A stretch of DNA of 37,961 nt from a virus. Location: the IMG/VR virus record IMGVR_UViG_3300036770_000744, positions 1 to 37,961 of that record; one strand, 5' to 3'. This document shows, in pieces, positions 2,238-16,629 of this stretch. Below the pieces are notes generated by a model. That model was not told the DNA's origin, did no database searches, and worked only from the letters and a program-made list of their open reading frames with translations. A program made the position numbers and the translations under genes. How positions within the stretch are numbered: position 1 is the stretch's first letter; the number at the start of each line of letters is the position of its first letter.

Positions 2238-2260
2238 TGCCTACCCTTTAACCCTCTTAT

Positions 2261-2285
2261 AAGCCCCTTTAGGGGCTTTTCTTTT
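2261..2285 (+). terminator. Rho-independent terminator of the first early block
   Basis: AAGCCCC (2261-2267) pairs perfectly with GGGGCTT (2272-2278) across a TTTA loop, followed by TTCTTTT. It stands 23 bases after the miniprotein stop codon. A second, weaker hairpin, AAGCCCTT-AC-AAGGGCTT (2321-2338), follows without a clear T-tract. Confidence 0.85.
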
Positions 2286-2415
2286 ATGGTCTAGGGCTAG
2301 CCTATGCCCTAACCACTACAAAGCCCTTACAAGGGCTTATAAGGGGCTTTATGCCCTGCCCTATCCTATGCCCTGCCCTTAGTTGAGCAGGTGAACCCAA
2401 GTGGATCAGGTCAAT

Positions 2416-2535
2416 TGGATACGGCATAACAGACTGGATACGGAGTTTACCCATGCGCACGCCCGTGTGTGGGCTGGATACGGCACCATTGGTTCCATTG
2501 GCACCATTGGTTCCAGAGTTTCCCATTGGATACGG
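2416..2535 (+). repeat. Four TGGATACGG repeats (iteron-like)
   Basis: Exact 9-mers lie at 2416-2424, 2435-2443, 2475-2483 and 2527-2535, all in the same orientation; a degenerate copy TGGATCAGG lies at 2402-2410. Three of the four continue as TGGATACGGCA. The start-to-start distances (19, 40 and 52) are irregular, unlike classical iterons. An interrupted copy (TTGGATACACG) also lies near 389. Confidence 0.7.
2482..2515 (+). repeat. 18-bp tandem repeat between the TGGATACGG copies
   Basis: GGCACCATTGGTTCCA occurs at 2482-2497 and again at 2500-2515, an 18-base period. The first copy overlaps the end of the third TGGATACGG. Confidence 0.8.
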
Positions 2536-2624
2536 CACCAAAGAGGTCAACCCCTTTGCTGCCCCATGTCCCACTGGCCCCGGCCCTTAAAGGCCAAGGG
2601 GCCAAGTCCACCCTATAAGCCTAT

Positions 2625-2640
2625 AACTATAGCTATAGTT
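2625..2640. repeat. Perfect 16-bp palindrome
   Basis: AACTATAGCTATAGTT reads the same on both strands. Its core CTATAGCTA recurs in the 18-bp AT-rich repeats at 2738-2772, so both may bind the same protein. Confidence 0.7.
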
Positions 2641-2737
2641 CAACACAATCGTAGAATGTAGTTATAACGTAGAACTAAGGTAGACGTATAACCTCACGTA
2701 TATGTTTTTTTTTATTGTAGGTTTACTCTACGACTAC

Positions 2738-2790
2738 GTTCTTACTATAGCTACAGTTCTTACTATAGCTACGGTTCTTCTTATACTACC
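2738..2790 (+). repeat. AT-rich 18-bp direct repeats, candidate DNA-unwinding element
   Basis: GTTCTTACTATAGCTAC occurs at 2738-2754 and 2756-2772, and a degenerate third copy starts at 2774 (GGTTCTTCTTATACTACC). They are followed by TATATATATATAGG and end about 20 bases before the first DnaA box. This resembles the AT-rich direct repeats that melt next to DnaA boxes in bacterial and plasmid origins. Confidence 0.6.
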
Positions 2791-2811
2791 TATATATATA
2801 TAGGGGAGAAG

Positions 2812-2844
2812 TTATCCACAGAGTTATCCACAGAGTTATCCACA
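2812..2844 (+). repeat. Three perfect tandem DnaA boxes
   Basis: TTATCCACA, the consensus strong DnaA box, occurs at 2812-2820, 2824-2832 and 2836-2844 with an exact 12-base period, all in one orientation. The repeat unit is GAGTTATCCACA. Chance occurrence of three identical consensus boxes in 33 bases is very unlikely. Confidence 0.85.
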
Positions 2845-2856
2845 TGCAAAAAGATG

Positions 2857-2885
2857 TTGACAGAGCCTATACTGTGTACTAGTGT
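2857..2885 (+). promoter_or_regulatory. Putative promoter for the second early operon, next to the DnaA boxes
   Basis: A consensus -35 TTGACA (2857-2862) begins 12 bases after the last DnaA box. A 17-base spacer leads to TAGTGT (2880-2885), a weak -10. The DnaA boxes lie where an upstream regulator would bind. Positions 2886-3010 form the leader; an open frame from 2892 has no ribosome binding site and I do not call it. Confidence 0.45.
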
Positions 2886-3010
2886 AAGCATGAGTCCAGC
2901 CGGCGGTGACCTCTTAGACGAAACAACACCGGCAGCCGGGGTCAGGTTTCCTTGTATTGATCCTTTTCCTGATGACCCGGCACCCTTTAATCCTAATCGT
3001 GGAGGCTTAC

Positions 3011-3160
3011 ATGTACGAACTGTTAGACCAGATACGGCAGCTAGAGATAGAGCTTGCCCAAGCCCTTAATCGTGCTAAAGACAGCGTAGCCTTGCTTGAA
3101 GAAGCTGTGCAGAGGCTGAAGGACTACAGGCTAGACATTGAGGGGGAGGACAGGGAATGA
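3011..3160 (+). CDS. Small coiled-coil hypothetical protein
   Basis: The 49-residue product begins MYELLDQIRQLEIELAQALN and shows heptad-like leucine spacing across nearly its whole length, consistent with a short coiled coil. ATG 3011 has GGAGG six bases upstream; longer starts in this frame lack a ribosome binding site. Its stop overlaps the next start (ATGA). No family is recognised. Confidence 0.65.
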   Translation: MYELLDQIRQLEIELAQALNRAKDSVALLEEAVQRLKDYRLDIEGEDRE

Positions 3161-3757: not shown

Positions 3758-4140
3758 TGAGCATCGAGGCAATGAAGCAAGCATTGCAGGCTTTAGAGTT
3801 TGCGGGTGATCTGATAGCCCCAATTACCGAAAATTGCCAATGCAAAATTTGTTTAGCGCATACCGCACTACGCCAAGCCATCGCAGAGGCAGAGAAGCAA
3901 GAGCCTGTGGCATTTGTATCGAAGTGCAACGATGGTGAGTGCTTAATCAGCCTAATAAATCCAGCGGCGGTTTTTTACACCGCACCTGTACACGCCAGCG
4001 ACATAAGCCAAGAACGTGTCGATGAAACAGCAAAAGATCGACATATATCTTATGTCTGCCCAAATTGTCATTGGTCACTTAATCGTCAGGAGCCTGATAC
4101 CGACATCTACGACGTTTGGAAGGAGAAGAACCGTGGCTGA
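3757..4140 (+). CDS. Hypothetical accessory protein of the AMKQALQALE / EPVA..YTAP type, with Cys pairs
   Basis: The 127-residue product joins modules seen in many phage accessory proteins: an N-terminal helix S-I-E-A-M-K-Q-A-L-Q-A-L-E, a helix ending in A-L-R-Q-A-I-A-E-A-E-K-Q, an E-P-V-A-F-V...F-Y-T-A-P-V beta unit (about 50-80) and a C-terminal part with C-P-N-C. Two cysteine groups, CQCKIC (28-33) and CPNC, could form a zinc site. It starts in a TGATG overlap with the previous stop. Such proteins are mosaic and poorly understood; no function is assigned. Confidence 0.7.
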   Translation: MSIEAMKQALQALEFAGDLIAPITENCQCKICLAHTALRQAIAEAEKQEPVAFVSKCNDGECLISLINPAAVFYTAPVHASDISQERVDETAKDRHISYVCPNCHWSLNRQEPDTDIYDVWKEKNRG

Positions 4141-5413: not shown

Positions 5414-5593
5414 ATGAGTACACAAATGGAGCTTAACGGCGTGACTGAGGTTTACATCTCGGACGCTACACGCACGACTGACAACAGCCGCACATGGCGA
5501 ACAATTCGAATTAAAACCGAAGAAGGCACAGTGCTAGAGCTGTCGCTTTGGGCAAACGATTTCGGATTACCCATCACACTCGGGGAGGACTAA
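5414..5593 (+). CDS. Small hypothetical protein ahead of the recombination genes
   Basis: The 59-residue product begins MSTQMELNGVTEVYISDATR and ends with LWANDFGLPITLGED. It is predicted beta-rich: T-W-R-T-I-R-I-K-T then G-T-V-L-E-L-S-L-W-A. The start has AAAGGGG eight bases upstream plus the repeated leader element. It ends 2 bases before the exonuclease gene, and its last codons contain that gene's ribosome binding site. The family is not recognised. Confidence 0.65.
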   Translation: MSTQMELNGVTEVYISDATRTTDNSRTWRTIRIKTEEGTVLELSLWANDFGLPITLGED

Positions 5594-5595
5594 CA

Positions 5596-6495
5596 ATGGC
5601 ACTTTCAGCACACGACATAGAGATTCGGCCTAACCACATCTGGGCAGGCGATGCAGGGCAGATTGCAGCAGGTAAGGCGGGTGAGGTCTATATGCTTAAA
5701 ACAGGCCAGAAAGAGCCTGAAGACCTTAGCGGCAATGAGGCGGTAGAGATGGGCCTTGTTATGCAAGAACCGATTATGAGGGCTGCAGCAGGGCGTTGGG
5801 GACTGGAGTTTAAGGATGCCGACTACCACTTAATCCATCCACGGCATACGTTCTTAGCTAGTCACTTTGACTACATTAGTAGCGACGGTAAGACCTTATA
5901 CGAGGTCAAAAACCTTGGGCACCACCAGCGCAAACACTACGGAGACTCGGGCAGTGAGCAGGTTTCTGATCGCTACCGTGCCCAATGTATGCATGAACTC
6001 ATTGTCCACCAAGTCGAGAACATCGAGCTTATCGTTTTGTTTGGTGGGCAGGAGTTGTGCAGGTTCCCGCAGACCGTCACAGAGTTAGAGCAAGAGGCGC
6101 ATATACGTGCTATGGCTGAGTTCTGGGCGCAAGTGCAGACCAAGAGCTTTAACCCGCAGACAATGGCAGACGTGGTGAAGGATGTTTACCGGGTTGATGA
6201 CGGTAGTTCTATCGTTGCCAATGCCAGCATTGAGACAGCCTGTATCCAGTTGCAGCAGTTAAAGGCCAAGATGAAGGAGTTTGAAGAGGCTGAGGATGGG
6301 CTGAAAGAGTTTATCCAGAGCTGGATGAAGGAAAAGGCCACCGTGACAGCCTATGACGGTTCTATCTTAGCCACATGGAAGACTGCTAAACCATCTAAGC
6401 GTTTTAGTGCAGAGCTTCTAAAATCAGCCATGCCACAGATTTATGAGCAGTTTGTAGTGGAATCACCCGGTTCACGCCGGTTCCTAATCAAATAA
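5596..6495 (+). CDS. YqaJ-family viral recombinase exonuclease
   Basis: The 299-residue product has the PD-(D/E)XK core of YqaJ/lambda-exonuclease-type alkaline nucleases: an N-terminal E-P-I-M-R-A-A-A-G-R-W-G helix near 57-68, the metal-binding D92 in L-A-S-H-F-D-Y, and Y-E-V-K-N with E103 and K105. A coiled segment follows (about 215-240). These enzymes resect 5' strands of double-stranded DNA so that an annealing protein can load. The partner is the next gene, 10 bases downstream. ATG 5596 with GGGGAGG is chosen; the GTG at 5548 lies inside the preceding gene. Confidence 0.85.
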   Translation: MALSAHDIEIRPNHIWAGDAGQIAAGKAGEVYMLKTGQKEPEDLSGNEAVEMGLVMQEPIMRAAAGRWGLEFKDADYHLIHPRHTFLASHFDYISSDGKTLYEVKNLGHHQRKHYGDSGSEQVSDRYRAQCMHELIVHQVENIELIVLFGGQELCRFPQTVTELEQEAHIRAMAEFWAQVQTKSFNPQTMADVVKDVYRVDDGSSIVANASIETACIQLQQLKAKMKEFEEAEDGLKEFIQSWMKEKATVTAYDGSILATWKTAKPSKRFSAELLKSAMPQIYEQFVVESPGSRRFLIK

Positions 6496-6505
6496 GGGGA
6501 ACATT

Positions 6506-7342
6506 ATGACCAATGTAGTCAGCATGAAAGAAGGGGCGATTCTTGACCCCAAAGTGATCGAATCCATTGTGATGAATGGCGATCTAAGCAAGCTACAGCC
6601 AGCACAGAAAGTGGCGTACTACAACTACAGATGCAGCCAAGCAGGGCTAGACCCCGCTGCCAAGCCATTTGATTTGCTCAAACTCAATGGGAAGGAAATC
6701 TTATATGCCAACGCACAATGCACTCAGCAACTGTGTGCTATCCATAAACTTAGCACCCAAGTCACGCACCGAGAAAAGATGGATGACATATACCTTGTCT
6801 CAGTGCGAGTTACAGGCGCTGACGGTAGACTTTCTGAGAACCAAGGGGCAGTGGCAATTGCACACCTCAAAGGGGACGCCCTTGCCAATGCAGTCCTCAA
6901 AGCGACCACGAAAGCGATTAGGCGTGCAGTCCTCGCCCACTGTGGCCTCGGGATGCTTGACGAAACGGAAGCCGAAACAATCCCAAACGCAAGAATGGAA
7001 CCAATGGTTCAAGTTTCAACACAAGCCGCCCCGTCAATTAGTGAAATCCTTGCAAAGCCTGCCGACGGCATTGCTCTGATGGTGCCGGGTACTGATGAAC
7101 CCTATGCTTATTACGAGACGATGGACAAGTGGGTGGATGCTTTCCTAACCATGTTCGACAAGATTGCAGCCAATAAAAAGATGGACGCAGGCACCAAGCT
7201 GTTAAAAATGTCCGACTTTGAGAAGTGCAATACACGCACCATTCACGAACTCGCTAGGAACCATGAAGGCCTATATTCGGTTTTTTCTGGTGGCGTGGGC
7301 AGTGCGAGAGCTTTTGCCAGTGAAGAAGCAAAAAAGCAGTAG
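6506..7342 (+). CDS. RecT-like single-stranded DNA annealing protein
   Basis: The 278-residue product has the conserved core of phage annealing proteins: Y-R-C-S-Q-A-G-L-D-P (about 42-52), G-K-E-I-L-Y-A-N-A-Q-C-T-Q-Q-L and K-A-T-T-K-A-I-R-R-A-V-L-A-H-C-G-L-G-M-L-D-E-T-E (about 132-155). The TKAIRR...GLG.LDE.E block is typical of RecT-like proteins. After about residue 170 a variable C-terminal part follows. It would pair complementary single strands made by the upstream exonuclease. The last codons are GCA AAA AAG CAG TAG, placing a perfect A-AAA-AAG slippery heptamer in frame (7330-7336); see the next entries. AAGGGG precedes the ATG. Confidence 0.75.
   Translation: MTNVVSMKEGAILDPKVIESIVMNGDLSKLQPAQKVAYYNYRCSQAGLDPAAKPFDLLKLNGKEILYANAQCTQQLCAIHKLSTQVTHREKMDDIYLVSVRVTGADGRLSENQGAVAIAHLKGDALANAVLKATTKAIRRAVLAHCGLGMLDETEAETIPNARMEPMVQVSTQAAPSISEILAKPADGIALMVPGTDEPYAYYETMDKWVDAFLTMFDKIAANKKMDAGTKLLKMSDFEKCNTRTIHELARNHEGLYSVFSGGVGSARAFASEEAKKQ
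7330..7336 (+). promoter_or_regulatory. Putative programmed -1 frameshift site A-AAA-AAG
   Basis: The heptamer is in the correct X-XXY-YYZ phase of the annealing-protein frame, followed by CAG and the TAG stop. A -1 slip enters the frame of the HTH domain, which is open from 7324 with no ATG, GTG or TTG until 7393. Possible downstream structure: CAGTCAGAGT (7369-7378) pairs perfectly with ACTCTGACTG (7408-7417), and GCGG-CAC-CCGC is a short hairpin at 7352-7362. The long stem lies farther away than usual. A read error in the A6 run is the main alternative. Confidence 0.5.
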
Positions 7343-7392: not shown

Positions 7393-7575
7393 ATGGATAA
7401 GGGCCACACTCTGACTGCACTGGAAGCCTTGCAGATGATGGGCGTGTTTAGACTGGCGGCACGCATTGATGATTTGCGTAAGAAGGGTCACAACATCGTG
7501 ACAGAGGAAGTCATAGAGGGCGGTAAGACGTTTGCCCGTTATCATTTAGTGAAAGGAGTTGGACATGGCGTATGA
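7393..7575 (+). CDS. Helix-turn-helix domain protein, probably made as a -1 frameshift extension of the annealing protein
   Basis: From ATG 7393 the frame gives 60 residues with a winged-helix-like domain: T-L-T-A-L-E-A-L-Q-M-M-G-V-F-R-L-A-A-R-I-D-D-L-R-K-K-G-H-N-I followed by T-E-E-V...F-A-R-Y-H-L-V. This matches the phage HTH family with the 'LT..EAL...G..RLA.RI.DLRK.G..I' pattern. The first helix of that family, S-Q-S-E-L-I-L-R-Y-M, is encoded just upstream in the same open frame, but no start codon or ribosome binding site precedes it, and ATG 7393 has none either. A -1 shift at 7330-7336 would give a fusion of about 356 residues. Otherwise it is a truncated HTH protein or uses a non-standard start. 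Confidence 0.7.
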   Translation: MDKGHTLTALEALQMMGVFRLAARIDDLRKKGHNIVTEEVIEGGKTFARYHLVKGVGHGV

Positions 7576-7840
7576 CAGACCACCGGGCACAGGTGCCCTA
7601 TTCGGACAGAGCAAACCTGATGGCAGCAAAGGGCCAGACTGGAAGGGTGAGCTGTTGCTTGACCAAGACTATAAGGCAGGCGACGTACTCAAGATGGCAG
7701 GCTGGATTAAGCAGACCGCTAGAGGGCCGCTTATCAGCCTCAAAGAAGACACTTGGAAGCCAGACCCCAACTATCGTCAGAACCAGCAACCAACGCCTTC
7801 TAAGAGCTTTGATGACATTGACGGGGAAGTCCCTTTTTGA
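7565..7840 (+). CDS. Small single-stranded-DNA-binding-like protein with acidic SSB-type C-terminus
   Basis: The 91-residue product contains W-K-G-E-L-L-L (about 27-33), a short beta-rich core and W-I-K-Q-T-A-R-G-P-L-I-S-L, then a flexible tail ending D-D-I-D-G-E-V-P-F. Bacterial SSB proteins end in D-D-D-I-P-F, the tip that recruits replication and repair partners; this end looks like a variant of it. Together with the exonuclease and annealing genes upstream, a role as ssDNA-binding accessory protein is likely but not proven. ATG 7565 has AAAGGAG at good spacing inside the HTH gene; the TTG at 7559 is less likely. Confidence 0.6.
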   Translation: MAYDRPPGTGALFGQSKPDGSKGPDWKGELLLDQDYKAGDVLKMAGWIKQTARGPLISLKEDTWKPDPNYRQNQQPTPSKSFDDIDGEVPF

Positions 7841-7842
7841 GC

Positions 7843-8802
7843 ATGAATAAGATCGAGTTTGGTGATTGCCGAGAAACCATGCGCCGCTGGAAAGAACAAG
7901 GAATCAAAGCACAGACTTGCGTGACCAGCCCACCCTACTACGGTTTGCGGAACTATGGTCACGATGGGCAGATCGGAATGGAAGAAACACCAGATGAATA
8001 CATCAAGGCAATGGTGGAAGTGTTTCGCTGTGTGTGGGATGTGCTGGAAGATGACGGCACGCTGTGGCTCAACATTGGCGACAGCTACTACAACTACCGA
8101 CCCGGCAAAGGTCAGGCGCTGGTGCAGCAATCAGTTTCAAACAACAGCCAAGACTTGCCGCAGGTATGTGCAAGGCGAGGCAACAAACTCGATGGCCTCA
8201 AGGAAAAGGATTTGATCGGCATACCTTGGATGCTTGCTTTTGCTCTCAGGGCTGACGGATGGTATTTGCGGCAAGACATCATCTGGCACAAACCAAACCC
8301 TATGCCTGAATCTGTGCAAGACCGTTGCACAAAAGCGCATGAGTATATTTTTTTGTTGAGCAAGTCTCAGAAGTATTACTACGATAGTAAATCTATTGCT
8401 GAACCTCATAAGGATGTTTCTGTTCAAAGGTGGGGGAATGGTGGTGAAGACACGATAAATACAAAATACGATAAAGAGACTCCGCAAACATCGGTTGGCA
8501 ATTTAAGAAATGGGAGCAATCCACTGAGGGATGGTGGAGCAAACAAAAGAAGCGTTTGGACGGTTACTACCAAGCCATACGAAGGCGCTCACTTTGCCGT
8601 GTTTCCTACTGACTTGATAGAACCATGTATTCTTGCTGGTGCGACTGCTGGTGGCATTGTCTTAGACCCTTTTATGGGTTCAGGCACTACCGCACAGGTT
8701 GCTCAGAATCTTGGCAGGAAATACCTTGGCTGTGAGTTGAATCCTGATTACAAGCCATTGCAAGAACAGCGTTTAATGCAACAGTCATTGGAGTTTGTGT
8801 AG
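7843..8802 (+). CDS. DNA (N4-cytosine or N6-adenine) methyltransferase, beta class
   Basis: The 319-residue product has catalytic T-S-P-P-Y-Y-G (28-34) near the N-terminus and the S-adenosylmethionine motif D-P-F-M-G-S-G-T-T starting at D275, so motif order is the beta class. The stretch about 185-245 is the probable target-recognition region. The SPPY form suits N4-cytosine or N6-adenine transfer; which base is modified cannot be told. No restriction enzyme of a clear type II pair is beside it, so it is probably an orphan phage enzyme that protects phage DNA. ATG 7843 follows the preceding stop by 2 bases; a TTG at 7837 in frame overlaps it. Confidence 0.85.
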   Translation: MNKIEFGDCRETMRRWKEQGIKAQTCVTSPPYYGLRNYGHDGQIGMEETPDEYIKAMVEVFRCVWDVLEDDGTLWLNIGDSYYNYRPGKGQALVQQSVSNNSQDLPQVCARRGNKLDGLKEKDLIGIPWMLAFALRADGWYLRQDIIWHKPNPMPESVQDRCTKAHEYIFLLSKSQKYYYDSKSIAEPHKDVSVQRWGNGGEDTINTKYDKETPQTSVGNLRNGSNPLRDGGANKRSVWTVTTKPYEGAHFAVFPTDLIEPCILAGATAGGIVLDPFMGSGTTAQVAQNLGRKYLGCELNPDYKPLQEQRLMQQSLEFV

Positions 8803-9164
8803 TGTCTAAACTTGCACGGGACAGAGGGGCGAACTACGAGCGAGAGGTTGCCGCAGCCGTCTTTGATGCGACTGGCATCAAGATCAAGCGCAACCTTCAG
8901 CAGTACCAGACCGCAGAGTTAGGCGACTTAGAGCTTGGCCCCTTCCTCATTGAGTGCAAGCGCAGACGTAAGGTAGCAGTCTACGAATGGATGGAACAGG
9001 CCGACAAAGCATGTGACGCAGATCACATTCCCGTTGTAATTTTTAGGGGGGATGGCAAGAAGAGCATGGTTATGTTCCACCTAGAAGACGCATTGAAGCT
9101 GATGGGCAATGAGTTAACCCCACCTGAGCCAGAGCAGGGAGTTCCCGCAAAAGGAACAGATTAG
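8802..9164 (+). CDS. PD-(D/E)XK-fold nuclease, Holliday-junction-resolvase-like
   Basis: The 120-residue product has the small-resolvase layout: an N-terminal helix R-G-A-N-Y-E-R-E-V-A-A-A-V with E13/E15, then D42 in E-L-G-D-L-E-L and E51-C-K53 in L-I-E-C-K-R-R-R, followed by a helix and strand (P-V-V-I-F-R-G-D-G). This fits Hjc-like or related endonucleases that would resolve branched DNA made by the annealing pathway. The GTG at 8802 overlaps the methyltransferase stop (TAGTG). An alternative is a restriction-like partner of the methyltransferase, but it has no DNA-recognition domain. Confidence 0.7.
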   Translation: MSKLARDRGANYEREVAAAVFDATGIKIKRNLQQYQTAELGDLELGPFLIECKRRRKVAVYEWMEQADKACDADHIPVVIFRGDGKKSMVMFHLEDALKLMGNELTPPEPEQGVPAKGTD

Positions 9165-11121: not shown

Positions 11122-11586
11122 TTAAGCAACCAATCCGTCTAGGTACTCCGTTTTACCGTCCTTCACCTTAGCCGTCAAGACCTGCTTCTTAAGATCGTAG
11201 GCGTTGTAACTGACATGAACCCATCCGCTATCAGGTATGCCGGGCGTGTAAAACTCCAGAATAACTTGGGTGTAGTTCAGGTTATCCACAATGAATTGTG
11301 CCAAGTCAGCGTTAGCAATCCCCGGAATCTCAATGTCAGCGGCCATCCCTTTGCAGTGATCTGACCTCGGACTGCCGCCAACCTTAGCGTTTACTAGAGG
11401 ATGACGGTAGCCACTGTTGACCTTCACACCACGGTTGTAGTGGTTGCGTATCGGTTGCAAGACCTTTTCGCAGAGAATGATAAGGTTCTGTAACTCCGTA
11501 TCGCCGGGATGATTGCCCATGCTAAAGCGCAGCGCAGTCTCCGATTTGGTCATTTCCTCAAAGGTAAAGTTCTTAGTCAGGTTCAT
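11122..11586 (-). CDS. Endolysin, peptidase M15A-type D-Ala-D-Ala carboxypeptidase/endopeptidase
   Basis: The 154-residue product has the zinc-site signature S-D-H-C-K-G-M-A-A-D (H77, D84) and the third ligand in W-V-H-V-S (H124), with V-N-S-G-Y-R-H-P (57-63) ahead of it. This is the layout of Peptidase_M15 lytic enzymes that cut peptidoglycan cross-bridge peptides. The length is typical for a single-domain endolysin without a binding domain, which suits a Gram-negative host. No signal peptide is visible, so it should need the holin, whose gene overlaps it by 4 bases upstream. Confidence 0.9.
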   Translation of the reverse strand: MNLTKNFTFEEMTKSETALRFSMGNHPGDTELQNLIILCEKVLQPIRNHYNRGVKVNSGYRHPLVNAKVGGSPRSDHCKGMAADIEIPGIANADLAQFIVDNLNYTQVILEFYTPGIPDSGWVHVSYNAYDLKKQVLTAKVKDGKTEYLDGLVA

Positions 11587-13847: not shown

Positions 13848-16629
13848 TTTCATCCTCCATCACAGACATAACTTCACGGCCAATAGTGGGGCCACCGTAA
13901 CTAACAATAGCGTTTTTGAGCAAGCTCTTAACTAGTGTCAGCTTTTGCCCTGCATTTACAGGCGTTACAAGAATCTCTTGCAACTGACCTGCAAGCTGTT
14001 GGTTGAACCGCTGGTCAATAAGGCCAGCATCAATAAGCCTGTCGCCAATGTACTTCCATTTGTCAGCAGCAGTCTTGGGGCTAGAACTAGCTAAATCAGC
14101 AACCACTTGCGATACGGCATCTGCAAAACGTTCTTTGCCAGCAGGGTTAGCAAGAATGACTTTAGCTGTCTCAGTAAGCTCATTGGTCTTTTCAGACATA
14201 ACAAGATCACGCACCCTAGCAGGCCCAGATTGATCGCCTCTGGTAAGTAGATCAGCCGTTTCTTGAGCAGACTTCCTAAGCGCTGCAGCCTCTTTGGTTA
14301 GCCCGGTAGCTACCTGTTCAGCCGCACCAACTTCAGTTTTACCGGCACGCTCTGCCTGCTCTTGCAAAGCACGCTGTTGGCGTTGTACTGCTTTAGCAGA
14401 AGCGCCTAGCTGTTGTTCTGCTCCACCAGTAATGTCACGAAATTGCTGTTCGCCAGCGGTAATGGCTTGCTGAGATTGTCGCTCACCGGCTGCGGTAAGC
14501 TCGCCTACTCTACGCTCACCAGTACGCTCTGCACGCTCTGCGGCTCTTTTTCCAGCCTCTTCAACACGGCGAGTAGCGGTTTCAGTGGTGCGAGGAATAG
14601 TACGCATTTCAGTGCCTAAAGCCTCTGCTAACTTGCCACGACGACCTGATACACGCTCGGCAGTGCCAAGACGCTGTGCGCCAGTCATAAGCTCTTGTTG
14701 AAGGCGTGGGAAGGTATCTAGCCAGTCTTGCGTCTTGCGGTCAGTAAGGAATCGTTGAACAGCAGGGCCATCTGCATTTTGAAGAGTATTTGCAACATAG
14801 CTACGTGCAATGTTTTCTGCTTGTTCTGGGCCAACAGTCTCTACTAACTGCGATACACCCTGTTTAGATGAAAACACATTGTCAGCCAGACTAGCGGGGT
14901 CAACCTTAAATTGAGCAAAGTCAGCTTCTTCACGGCCTGTAACTCGTTTGGCTAAGTTATTAACAAACCGATTAATAGGTTGCGAGTCAGCTTTGTACCT
15001 TTCTAAAAAGGAAGCAAATTTAGGCGCAAACTCTTTTTGTGTGGATTCAACTAAGTCAGATAATCGACCAGCCATTTGTTGACCAATAGCGTCATATCCC
15101 TCTGCGGGTAAACCCGATGCACGATCACGCAAACTACGGCGAATGATCTCTAGCTGCTCAAACGAGGGGCGTAGCGCCACATCAATGACTTGGCCGCCAT
15201 CGCCTTGGGCACGACGAAATCCTTGCAATACGTCTCTGATGCTTTGTATTTGGTTGCGAATCGTACCCTCTGGAACACCTACGGTGCCCGTTACAGGGTT
15301 TCGCAACATTGTGTTTAGTTCTTGAACCGCATTTTGCGCCGATTTGGTTTGGGAAAAGGAAGCGCCAGCCGCCTCTTTTTGGAAGGCTTCGCCAAATGCT
15401 TCTTGAGAATACGTCTTAGCATTGTCAGACCTTGTTTTGCGTAAACCATCAAGTACCGACGTAAAACCTTCACGAATGTCTGTGCCAATATCGCTAATTT
15501 TTTTAGGCTCGCCCACTTGAAACTGGGCTTGTTGCACTCGCTGTTGACCAGTAGTGCGCAAACGCTCTCGTACACCACGCAATCTTTGTATTCTTTGTTG
15601 TGCCTGCGCCGCAATCTGGTCAGCCTGTTGCTGTGCTTGCGCTATGGCTTGGTCAGCATCAATACGGGCCACCGACTGCAACTGTAGAGACTGGCCCTGC
15701 ACTTGTTGCATGATTTGATTGGCACGCTGTCTACCCGCTTCAATAGCCTGCCTTGCACGGGTTTCTGCATCTTGCCGCAACCCTATGGAGGCGTTTTCAA
15801 ACTGGCTTTGTAGGGCACCAATACGCTGTTGGGTATTGGCATCAATCTGACCTGCACGGGTTTGCGCTGCCGTAAGTAGTTCATCTGCCTGTCGCTCAAG
15901 TGTAAGCGCCTGTTGCTCTGCTTGAGACACCCTTTGTTGGGCTGTACGGGCAAGCATATCGGCCACTTCTTTTTGGGCTTGCAGACTGGACTTGCCGCCA
16001 CGGATTTCGTTGACTTTTTGTTGGATAAACGCCCGTTGCTCGGCAGTCATGCTACCCGGCTGTGCCGCTTCACGCTCTAACATTTGACCAATAGTGGCTG
16101 TTTTGGAGGCTCCGGGCACTCCCATTGCCTGCAACCCACGGCCAATAACAGTGCTACCTAAACCGCCTAACTGACGAGGAATCTCAGGGCCAAACGTGCC
16201 AGCCAAGAAACGTGCAACCTCTGCTTGCATAGGAGTGCCACCACGGGCCTCTACAACTTGTCCACCAGTCTCGCCAATCAAGCCACCAAGTAAACCGTAT
16301 CCAGCCTGCCCAAGCCTTTGGCCTCGCATTGCTTGCCCAGTAGAAAGGAGAAAGGGCGCAGCAGGTGCGGTAACAGGAAAAGCGGCGGCAGCGCCACCAG
16401 CTAGTGTAAATAGGTCTGGAGCAACAGCACCTAACGCAGCGCCTAAGCCGCCAGCAGTGCCAATCTCTGTGCCACGTTCTTTAAGAGTTTTGCGTTGCGT
16501 AGGTTGTTTTGGCTCAACATCAAGCCGGGGCATTTCCATTTCGCCAATTTGCGGTAAATCGTCTTGAGGGACGGGTCGTCGTCGTGGTGTTACTTGATCG
16601 GGCAAATCATCAAATGGAACTACGGCCAT
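13834..16629 (-). CDS. Large internal virion / ejection-type protein
   Basis: The 931-residue product has an N-terminal tail with F-D-D-L-P-D-Q and Q-D-D-L-P-Q, a Gly/Ala-rich hydrophobic region at about 55-135 that could insert in membranes, and then about 450 residues of Gln/Ala/Arg-rich coiled coil with many repeats such as [12 protein letters not shown]. The C-terminus is helical. Proteins of this size and composition, three or four in a row downstream of the tail genes, are typical podoviral proteins ejected into the cell with DNA. The assignment rests on position and composition, not on a recognised family. It starts at the last base of the upstream gene. Confidence 0.65.

Follow-up and report, generated by a model that had tools for sequence, protein, structure and literature searches.

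Tandem DnaA boxes beside an AT-rich block and an early promoter in a phage without recognizable replisome genes

We analysed a virus record of 37,961 bp over its whole length (the window). No end repeats were found, and the record represents a near-complete phage genome that is not quite whole. Pfam and PHROG searches identified TerL, an SU10-type portal and adaptor, capsid, endolysin and holin, along with a RecE/YqaJ exonuclease, a Rad52-like annealase, a methyltransferase, a PDDEXK/RusA-like nuclease and a small winged-helix protein. No tRNA or Rfam element occurs anywhere in the window. Near its left end, a gap of 773 bp separates the ArdC gene group, which ends at 2237, from the early operon, which begins at 3011. 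The features in and around this gap are as follows.

728–1639, + strand: ArdC-like protein with an ArdcN ssDNA-binding domain and a zincin-like metallopeptidase (PF08401 1e-34; PF18818 6e-45)
2238–3010, no strand: non-coding control region, flanked by the ArdC gene group and the early operon; no conserved ORF
2409–2492, + strand: core with TGGATACGG repeats, 80–86% conserved even in the box-less relatives L121–L125
2416–2424, + strand: TGGATACGG repeat 1
2435–2443, + strand: TGGATACGG repeat 2
2475–2483, + strand: TGGATACGG repeat 3
about 2482–2515, + strand: 9/18-bp tandem repeat GGCACCATTGGTTCCATT, unit CCATTGG(TT/CA)
2527–2535, + strand: TGGATACGG repeat 4
2614–2813, no strand: AT-rich, easily melted block, including a palindrome (2625–2640) and AT-rich repeats (2734–2779)
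2812–2820, + strand: DnaA box 1, TTATCCACA, exact match
2824–2832, + strand: DnaA box 2, TTATCCACA, exact match
2836–2844, + strand: DnaA box 3, TTATCCACA, exact match
2857–2885, + strand: early promoter-like TTGACA-N17-TAGTGT, hexamers conserved in relatives
3011–3160, + strand: first early gene, 49-aa protein, 43–97% identity in G001, G002, G004 and G005

We take this block to be the main cis-acting control region of the phage. A first-pass annotation had described it as a non-coding stretch between two operons, and indeed the small ORFs within 2238–3010 have neither family nor conservation support. The individual elements also stood up to closer inspection. Four of the repeated TGGATACGG sites lie in the gap and a fifth lies far off at 16295 (− strand), giving five in the window against 0.13 expected, a count reached by 0/100 dinucleotide shuffles. 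The three DnaA boxes are tandem with a 12-bp period, and single TTATCCACA copies occur inside genes at 11282 and 30106. The resulting five copies compare with 0.23 expected and were not reached by any dinucleotide shuffle, placing the boxes beyond chance. The palindrome AACTATAGCTATAGTT (16 bp) and the AT-rich 18-bp direct repeats (period 18, 2.6 copies) were likewise recovered. The reported 18-bp tandem repeat is present, but is really a 9/18-bp repeat. The TGGATACGG sites and the DnaA boxes have a TATCCA core in common, from which we considered, without claiming it, that TGGATACGG might act as a weak DnaA box.

Among 200-bp stretches of the window, the AT-rich block ranks second in instability (z −4.8). 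The other stability minimum, at 420–620 upstream of ArdC, has CGTATAG/TATAG motifs in common with it. As a single strand the repeat block shows nothing special in its secondary structure (z −0.73). The promoter-like element begins 12 nt after box 3. A consensus promoter scanner misses it, its −10 score being too low and below threshold; we nevertheless accept it because relatives keep both hexamers and the 17 nt between them. The 49-aa product encoded immediately after this promoter is conserved in that position and is probably a coiled coil.

The first-pass annotation had also noted the lack of visible replisome genes, and this was substantiated. No polymerase, helicase, primase or Rep was detected by Pfam among the 52 ORFs of the window or in PHROG scans, none is annotated in the circular, complete relative MW202753, and the near-complete relatives have none either. 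A complete replisome set in the missing part of the genome, with a different origin, had been named as one finding that would overturn the proposal. The relative G001 is a circular permutation of the window, each lacking one short piece present in the other, and neither piece contains a replisome gene: the ~636 bp of G001 that span the window's end junction and are absent from the window carry a methyltransferase-like ORF. What had been overlooked is an SSB-like protein, encoded within the recombination module, so that genes of replication type are not wholly absent.

5548–6495, + strand: RecE/YqaJ-type exonuclease (PHROG 434 1e-46; PF09588)
6506–7342, + strand: Rad52-like single-strand annealing protein (PF04098 8e-5)
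7393–7575, + strand: 60-aa winged helix-turn-helix protein (PF14090 2.8e-10), present in 8/9 relatives compared
7565–7840, + strand: SSB-like protein with a conserved C-terminal DDIDGEVPF tail (PHROG 18154, E 0.003)
8802–9164, + strand: PDDEXK/RusA-like nuclease (PHROG 244 1.6e-20; PF24608)

The exonuclease, annealase, winged-helix, SSB-like and PDDEXK proteins, together with a glycosyltransferase-like protein, make up the non-structural core of nearly all relatives. The SSB-like protein (91 aa) matches PHROG 18154 weakly in the window and better in G003 (1.4e-5), and as regards the OB fold of bacterial-type SSB, its AlphaFold2 model is of low confidence (pLDDT 58.8), with four strands only. 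Its acidic C-terminal tip ends in PF, as DGEVPF in the window and DDDVPF or DDDEIPF in relatives, and this SSB-type tail is kept in every full-length relative aligned, the most distant included. It resembles the C-terminal tip with which bacterial SSB contacts replication and repair proteins of the host. A spurious ORF at 7572–7850 overlaps the SSB-like gene.

The suggestion that the left block derives from a plasmid did not survive. The ArdC-like gene, whose start codon is probably the ATG at 749, is syntenic throughout the phage family. Outside close relatives its best match is phage MW202753 (47%), with phiCbK-like phages at about 44%, whereas identity to plasmid ArdC is at most 44.6% among the matches listed; the gene is widespread in plasmids and equally so in phages. 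No Rep, Par or relaxase was found in the window. We therefore rejected a plasmid-derived module: a recent plasmid source is not supported by these sequences, although a remote one is conceivable. Iteron plasmid origins (P1, RK2, pSC101 type) bring together direct repeats, AT-rich DNA and DnaA boxes within a single non-coding stretch, and direct repeats are also found here as the four TGGATACGG sites. Such origins need a cognate Rep, however, and the window and its relatives have no Rep gene. A further difference from an iteron origin is that the AT block and boxes reach into more distant relatives, while the TGGATACGG repeats are found in the closest ones only.

We next consider the conservation of the region. 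ArdC-based retrieval gave 75 related loci, and most relatives covering the region have the same order of AT block, one to four same-strand boxes and promoter. In 13 of 14 non-redundant relatives, the AT block is separated from TTGACA-N17-TAnTnT by one to four exact boxes that share a strand. In most of the related loci covering the region the boxes are mainly 11–12 or 21–22 bp apart, and boxes are present in 25 of the 33 phages scored. The relatives' AT block is built of TATAG-type repeats and their promoter reads TTGAC[AT]-N17-TAnTnT. Aligned relatives preserve the 9-mers letter for letter amid spacers and flanks that change and gain or lose bases. Distances vary too: that from box to promoter is not fixed within the window's clade, ranging from 12 to about 60 nt. 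In the window and in G004, G005, G006 and G007 the AT block by the boxes is the first or second weakest 200 bp, and the other minimum lies upstream of ArdC.

The proposed comparison with related genomes thus found the layout kept in most of them, but the nearest relatives lack boxes. These are L121/L122 (ArdC 92% identical) and L124/L125 (85%); L129/L130 and L168 are likewise without boxes. Not one exact box occurs in the 38 kb of G001, whose DNA is about 83% identical, or in the whole record of G003. L125 and L168 lack the box segment but retain an intact AT block and promoter, so the boxes are not essential. On the ArdC tree, no fewer than four gains or losses of the boxes are required, the window being nested among box-less phages. 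Judged from these sequences, the boxes look like a genuine yet optional route to host DnaA, usually kept and cleanly lost several times. In L121 (7830–8340), the closest box-less relative, an unrelated, GC-richer segment of ~500 bp replaces the AT block and boxes. In G003 a protein with a beta-clamp central domain (L216:15399–16046, − strand; PF02767 2.5e-7) adjoins ArdC; beta-clamp domain 3 was not found in the relatives.

Repeated loss in close relatives, and the readiness with which tandem repeats expand and contract, would also fit a relic or hitchhiking repeat that is functionless today and slowly decaying. We regard this as improbable, since the 9-mers remain exact in many separate lineages though the DNA around them has diverged, and boxes are found over most of the tree.

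The 12-bp triple array also occurs in bacteria. At least 48 of 117 bacterial loci carrying it (at least 41%) have dnaA, dnaN or recF on the same piece, this neighbourhood being scored on pieces of at most 8 kb. This geometry is hence a signature of chromosomal origin/dnaA regions. None of 119 viral triple-array loci has dnaA, dnaN or recF beside it; the viral arrays are therefore not misplaced chromosome, and a mis-binned bacterial origin was rejected as an explanation. Among the viral arrays, 54/119 fall within ORFs 100 aa or longer, where they may represent coding repeats. PolA was found in 3/50 array-bearing viral contigs against 9/35 random contigs (p 0.02), DnaB in 8/50 against 11/35 (p 0.12) and either of the two in 9/50 against 13/35 (p 0.08), a weak contrast given that the contigs are incomplete, that array contigs are shorter and that arrays within long ORFs behave alike; our argument does not mainly rest on it.

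Bacterial oriC/dnaA promoter regions have the same exact 12-bp tandem array with AT-rich, melt-prone DNA alongside. In the window, consensus DnaA boxes are clustered in a non-coding stretch and an AT-rich unwinding element adjoins them, two features expected of an oriC-type origin. The window departs from a bacterial oriC in three respects. In E. coli oriC the melted side lies 3′ of TTATCCACA in R1, whereas in the window and its relatives the AT block lies 5′ of TTATCCACA; bacterial triple arrays near dnaA have no consistent AT side, so this mismatch weighs moderately. The boxes also lack the conservation expected of an essential element, being often lost, and the window's clade has only one to four of them. 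GC skew, proposed in cumulative form as a check on the origin, neither supports nor refutes it: skew tracks the orientation of the genes, and no ori/ter pair or switch is seen at fourfold sites.

The reading that we favour, with a probability of about 0.45, is that phage DNA synthesis starts at this block with help from DnaA and coupled to transcription. Host DnaA would bind the three high-affinity boxes beside the unwinding-prone AT block and the early promoter, and bound DnaA would help to open the AT block, boost early transcription, or both. Host DnaB and Pol III would then load, and the exonuclease, Rad52-like annealase and SSB-like protein would continue by recombination-dependent replication, with the SSB-like tail possibly recruiting host replication proteins. 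We infer DnaA binding, origin activity and recruitment through this tail from the features described above. On the favourable side we count the excess of boxes and repeats, the conserved layout, the weak AT block, the dnaA-type array geometry, the missing replisome, the conserved recombination/SSB-like core and two points taken up below, a cassette in ~14-kb siphophages and the precedent of phage lambda. Against it we count the box-less nearest relatives, the 5′ position of the AT block, the lack of a skew switch (uninformative in itself), the variable box-to-promoter distance and the occurrence of box clusters in phages that bear, or probably bear, a replisome. The original proposal, that the phage starts replication by recruiting host DnaA, is thus retained in part. 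The origin-like layout, the lack of a replisome and the dnaA/dnaN-type geometry agree with it; DnaA as a required initiator is unsupported because relatives with 85–92% identical ArdC, G001, L125 and L168 have no boxes. DnaA input would be optional, several relatives having lost the boxes.

In lambda, host DnaA stimulates the transcription that activates the origin (PMC3985674). Lambda pR/pO and oriLambda likewise have DnaA sites near an early promoter by the replication region, with DnaA as a helper and not the sole initiator, and a helper role of this kind would account for sites that are widespread and can nevertheless be dispensed with. Lambda differs in that it encodes an initiator (O) and a helicase loader (P) of its own, whereas the window has no recognizable initiator or loader; unlike in lambda, the window's boxes are exact, tandem and upstream of the promoter.

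The same arrangement might instead be a DnaA-regulated early promoter with no origin function, in which DnaA, bound just upstream of TTGACA, would switch the early operon or set its timing in response to host growth or DnaA level. Replication would then start independently of DnaA by recombination or restart, through the exonuclease, the annealase and the SSB tail. We think this doubtful but quite possible. The boxes lie upstream of conserved TTGACA-N17-TAnTnT hexamers, and box-less relatives retain the promoter along with the AT block. By itself, however, such a promoter explains neither the very weak AT block nor replication initiation, and the 12 to about 60 nt between boxes and promoter in the window's clade is more variation than it would suggest.

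Further evidence on this point came from a search for paired boxes with TTGACA 10–40 nt downstream, which yielded an unrelated clade of ~14-kb siphophages. These have actinophage-like terminases and carry near one genome end (L485, L587–L666 and others) a cassette of two boxes, an inverted TGTGGA, TTGACA 37 nt past the last box and TATACT, in 54 distinct sequences. The 37-nt distance holds in 57/57 members analysed, a constancy inflated by common descent and by their selection as a 64-nt class. Among ~14-kb relatives fetched regardless of boxes, 63/76 carry one or more exact boxes within the 260 bp that precede the next gene. Both counts favour DnaA control of the promoter, the first within the limit just given. 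The cassette had no match in the annotated phage collection. In L485 (14,298 bp, 20 ORFs), the sole ~14-kb member scanned for replication genes, none was recognizable, the recognized genes being of packaging, capsid, lysis-type and Dam-type function only.

Returning to a DnaA-assisted start, a wider version of it would be that unrelated replisome-less tailed phages, namely this SU10-type-portal clade and the ~14-kb siphophages, independently took up DnaA-box cassettes, start synthesis via host DnaA at an early promoter and finish with host enzymes and phage recombination/SSB-like proteins. We put this forward as speculative and on balance unlikely. If true, cassettes in unrelated replisome-poor phages would tie phage development to the host replication initiator. 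The question bears on how small phages that encode no polymerase, helicase or initiator begin to replicate. In the literature searched we found no phages described as both DnaA-dependent and without replication genes, an absence that is not proof. The region offers a concrete site, consisting of three 9-mers, an AT block and a promoter, and the related phages that have the AT block and promoter but no boxes constitute a natural experiment.

DnaA-box clusters are not confined to such phages. The T7-like Berlinvirus A7 (MK685668.1, L208:1–150) has four exact and several near boxes at its left end, Lactococcus phage 949 has a cluster in non-coding DNA, and phages of 103–121 kb have clusters that lie near both ends in 4/6 records. 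Like the window, these phages thus have several non-coding TTATCCACA boxes. The groups to which they belong have a replisome of their own, or probably do, so their boxes need not replace a missing initiator. Boxes alone are hence no proof of an origin, since several box-bearing phages are in groups that replicate with their own enzymes; this is also compatible with control of a promoter.

Clusters in phages that should not need DnaA could further point to a DnaA sink or DnaA-cycle element, datA- or DARS-like, whereby the boxes of a multicopy phage stop or disturb initiation of the host chromosome. There are precedents, in that datA titrates DnaA and the ColE1 DARS consists of three DnaA boxes within 70 bp (PMC5835720), and the phage boxes are clustered and of high affinity. 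With merely one to four boxes, and with a regular position by an AT block and promoter that titration does not need, we consider this very improbable.

Two further arrangements of boxes were observed in other viruses. In G095–G098 (L484, L491, L495 and L511; 108–121 kb), paired boxes precede TTGACA near both ends, probably inside long terminal repeats. In the microvirus PQ006258.1 (L196:1783–1837, about 3776–3830), five exact boxes lie in intergenic DNA directly after the Rep gene.
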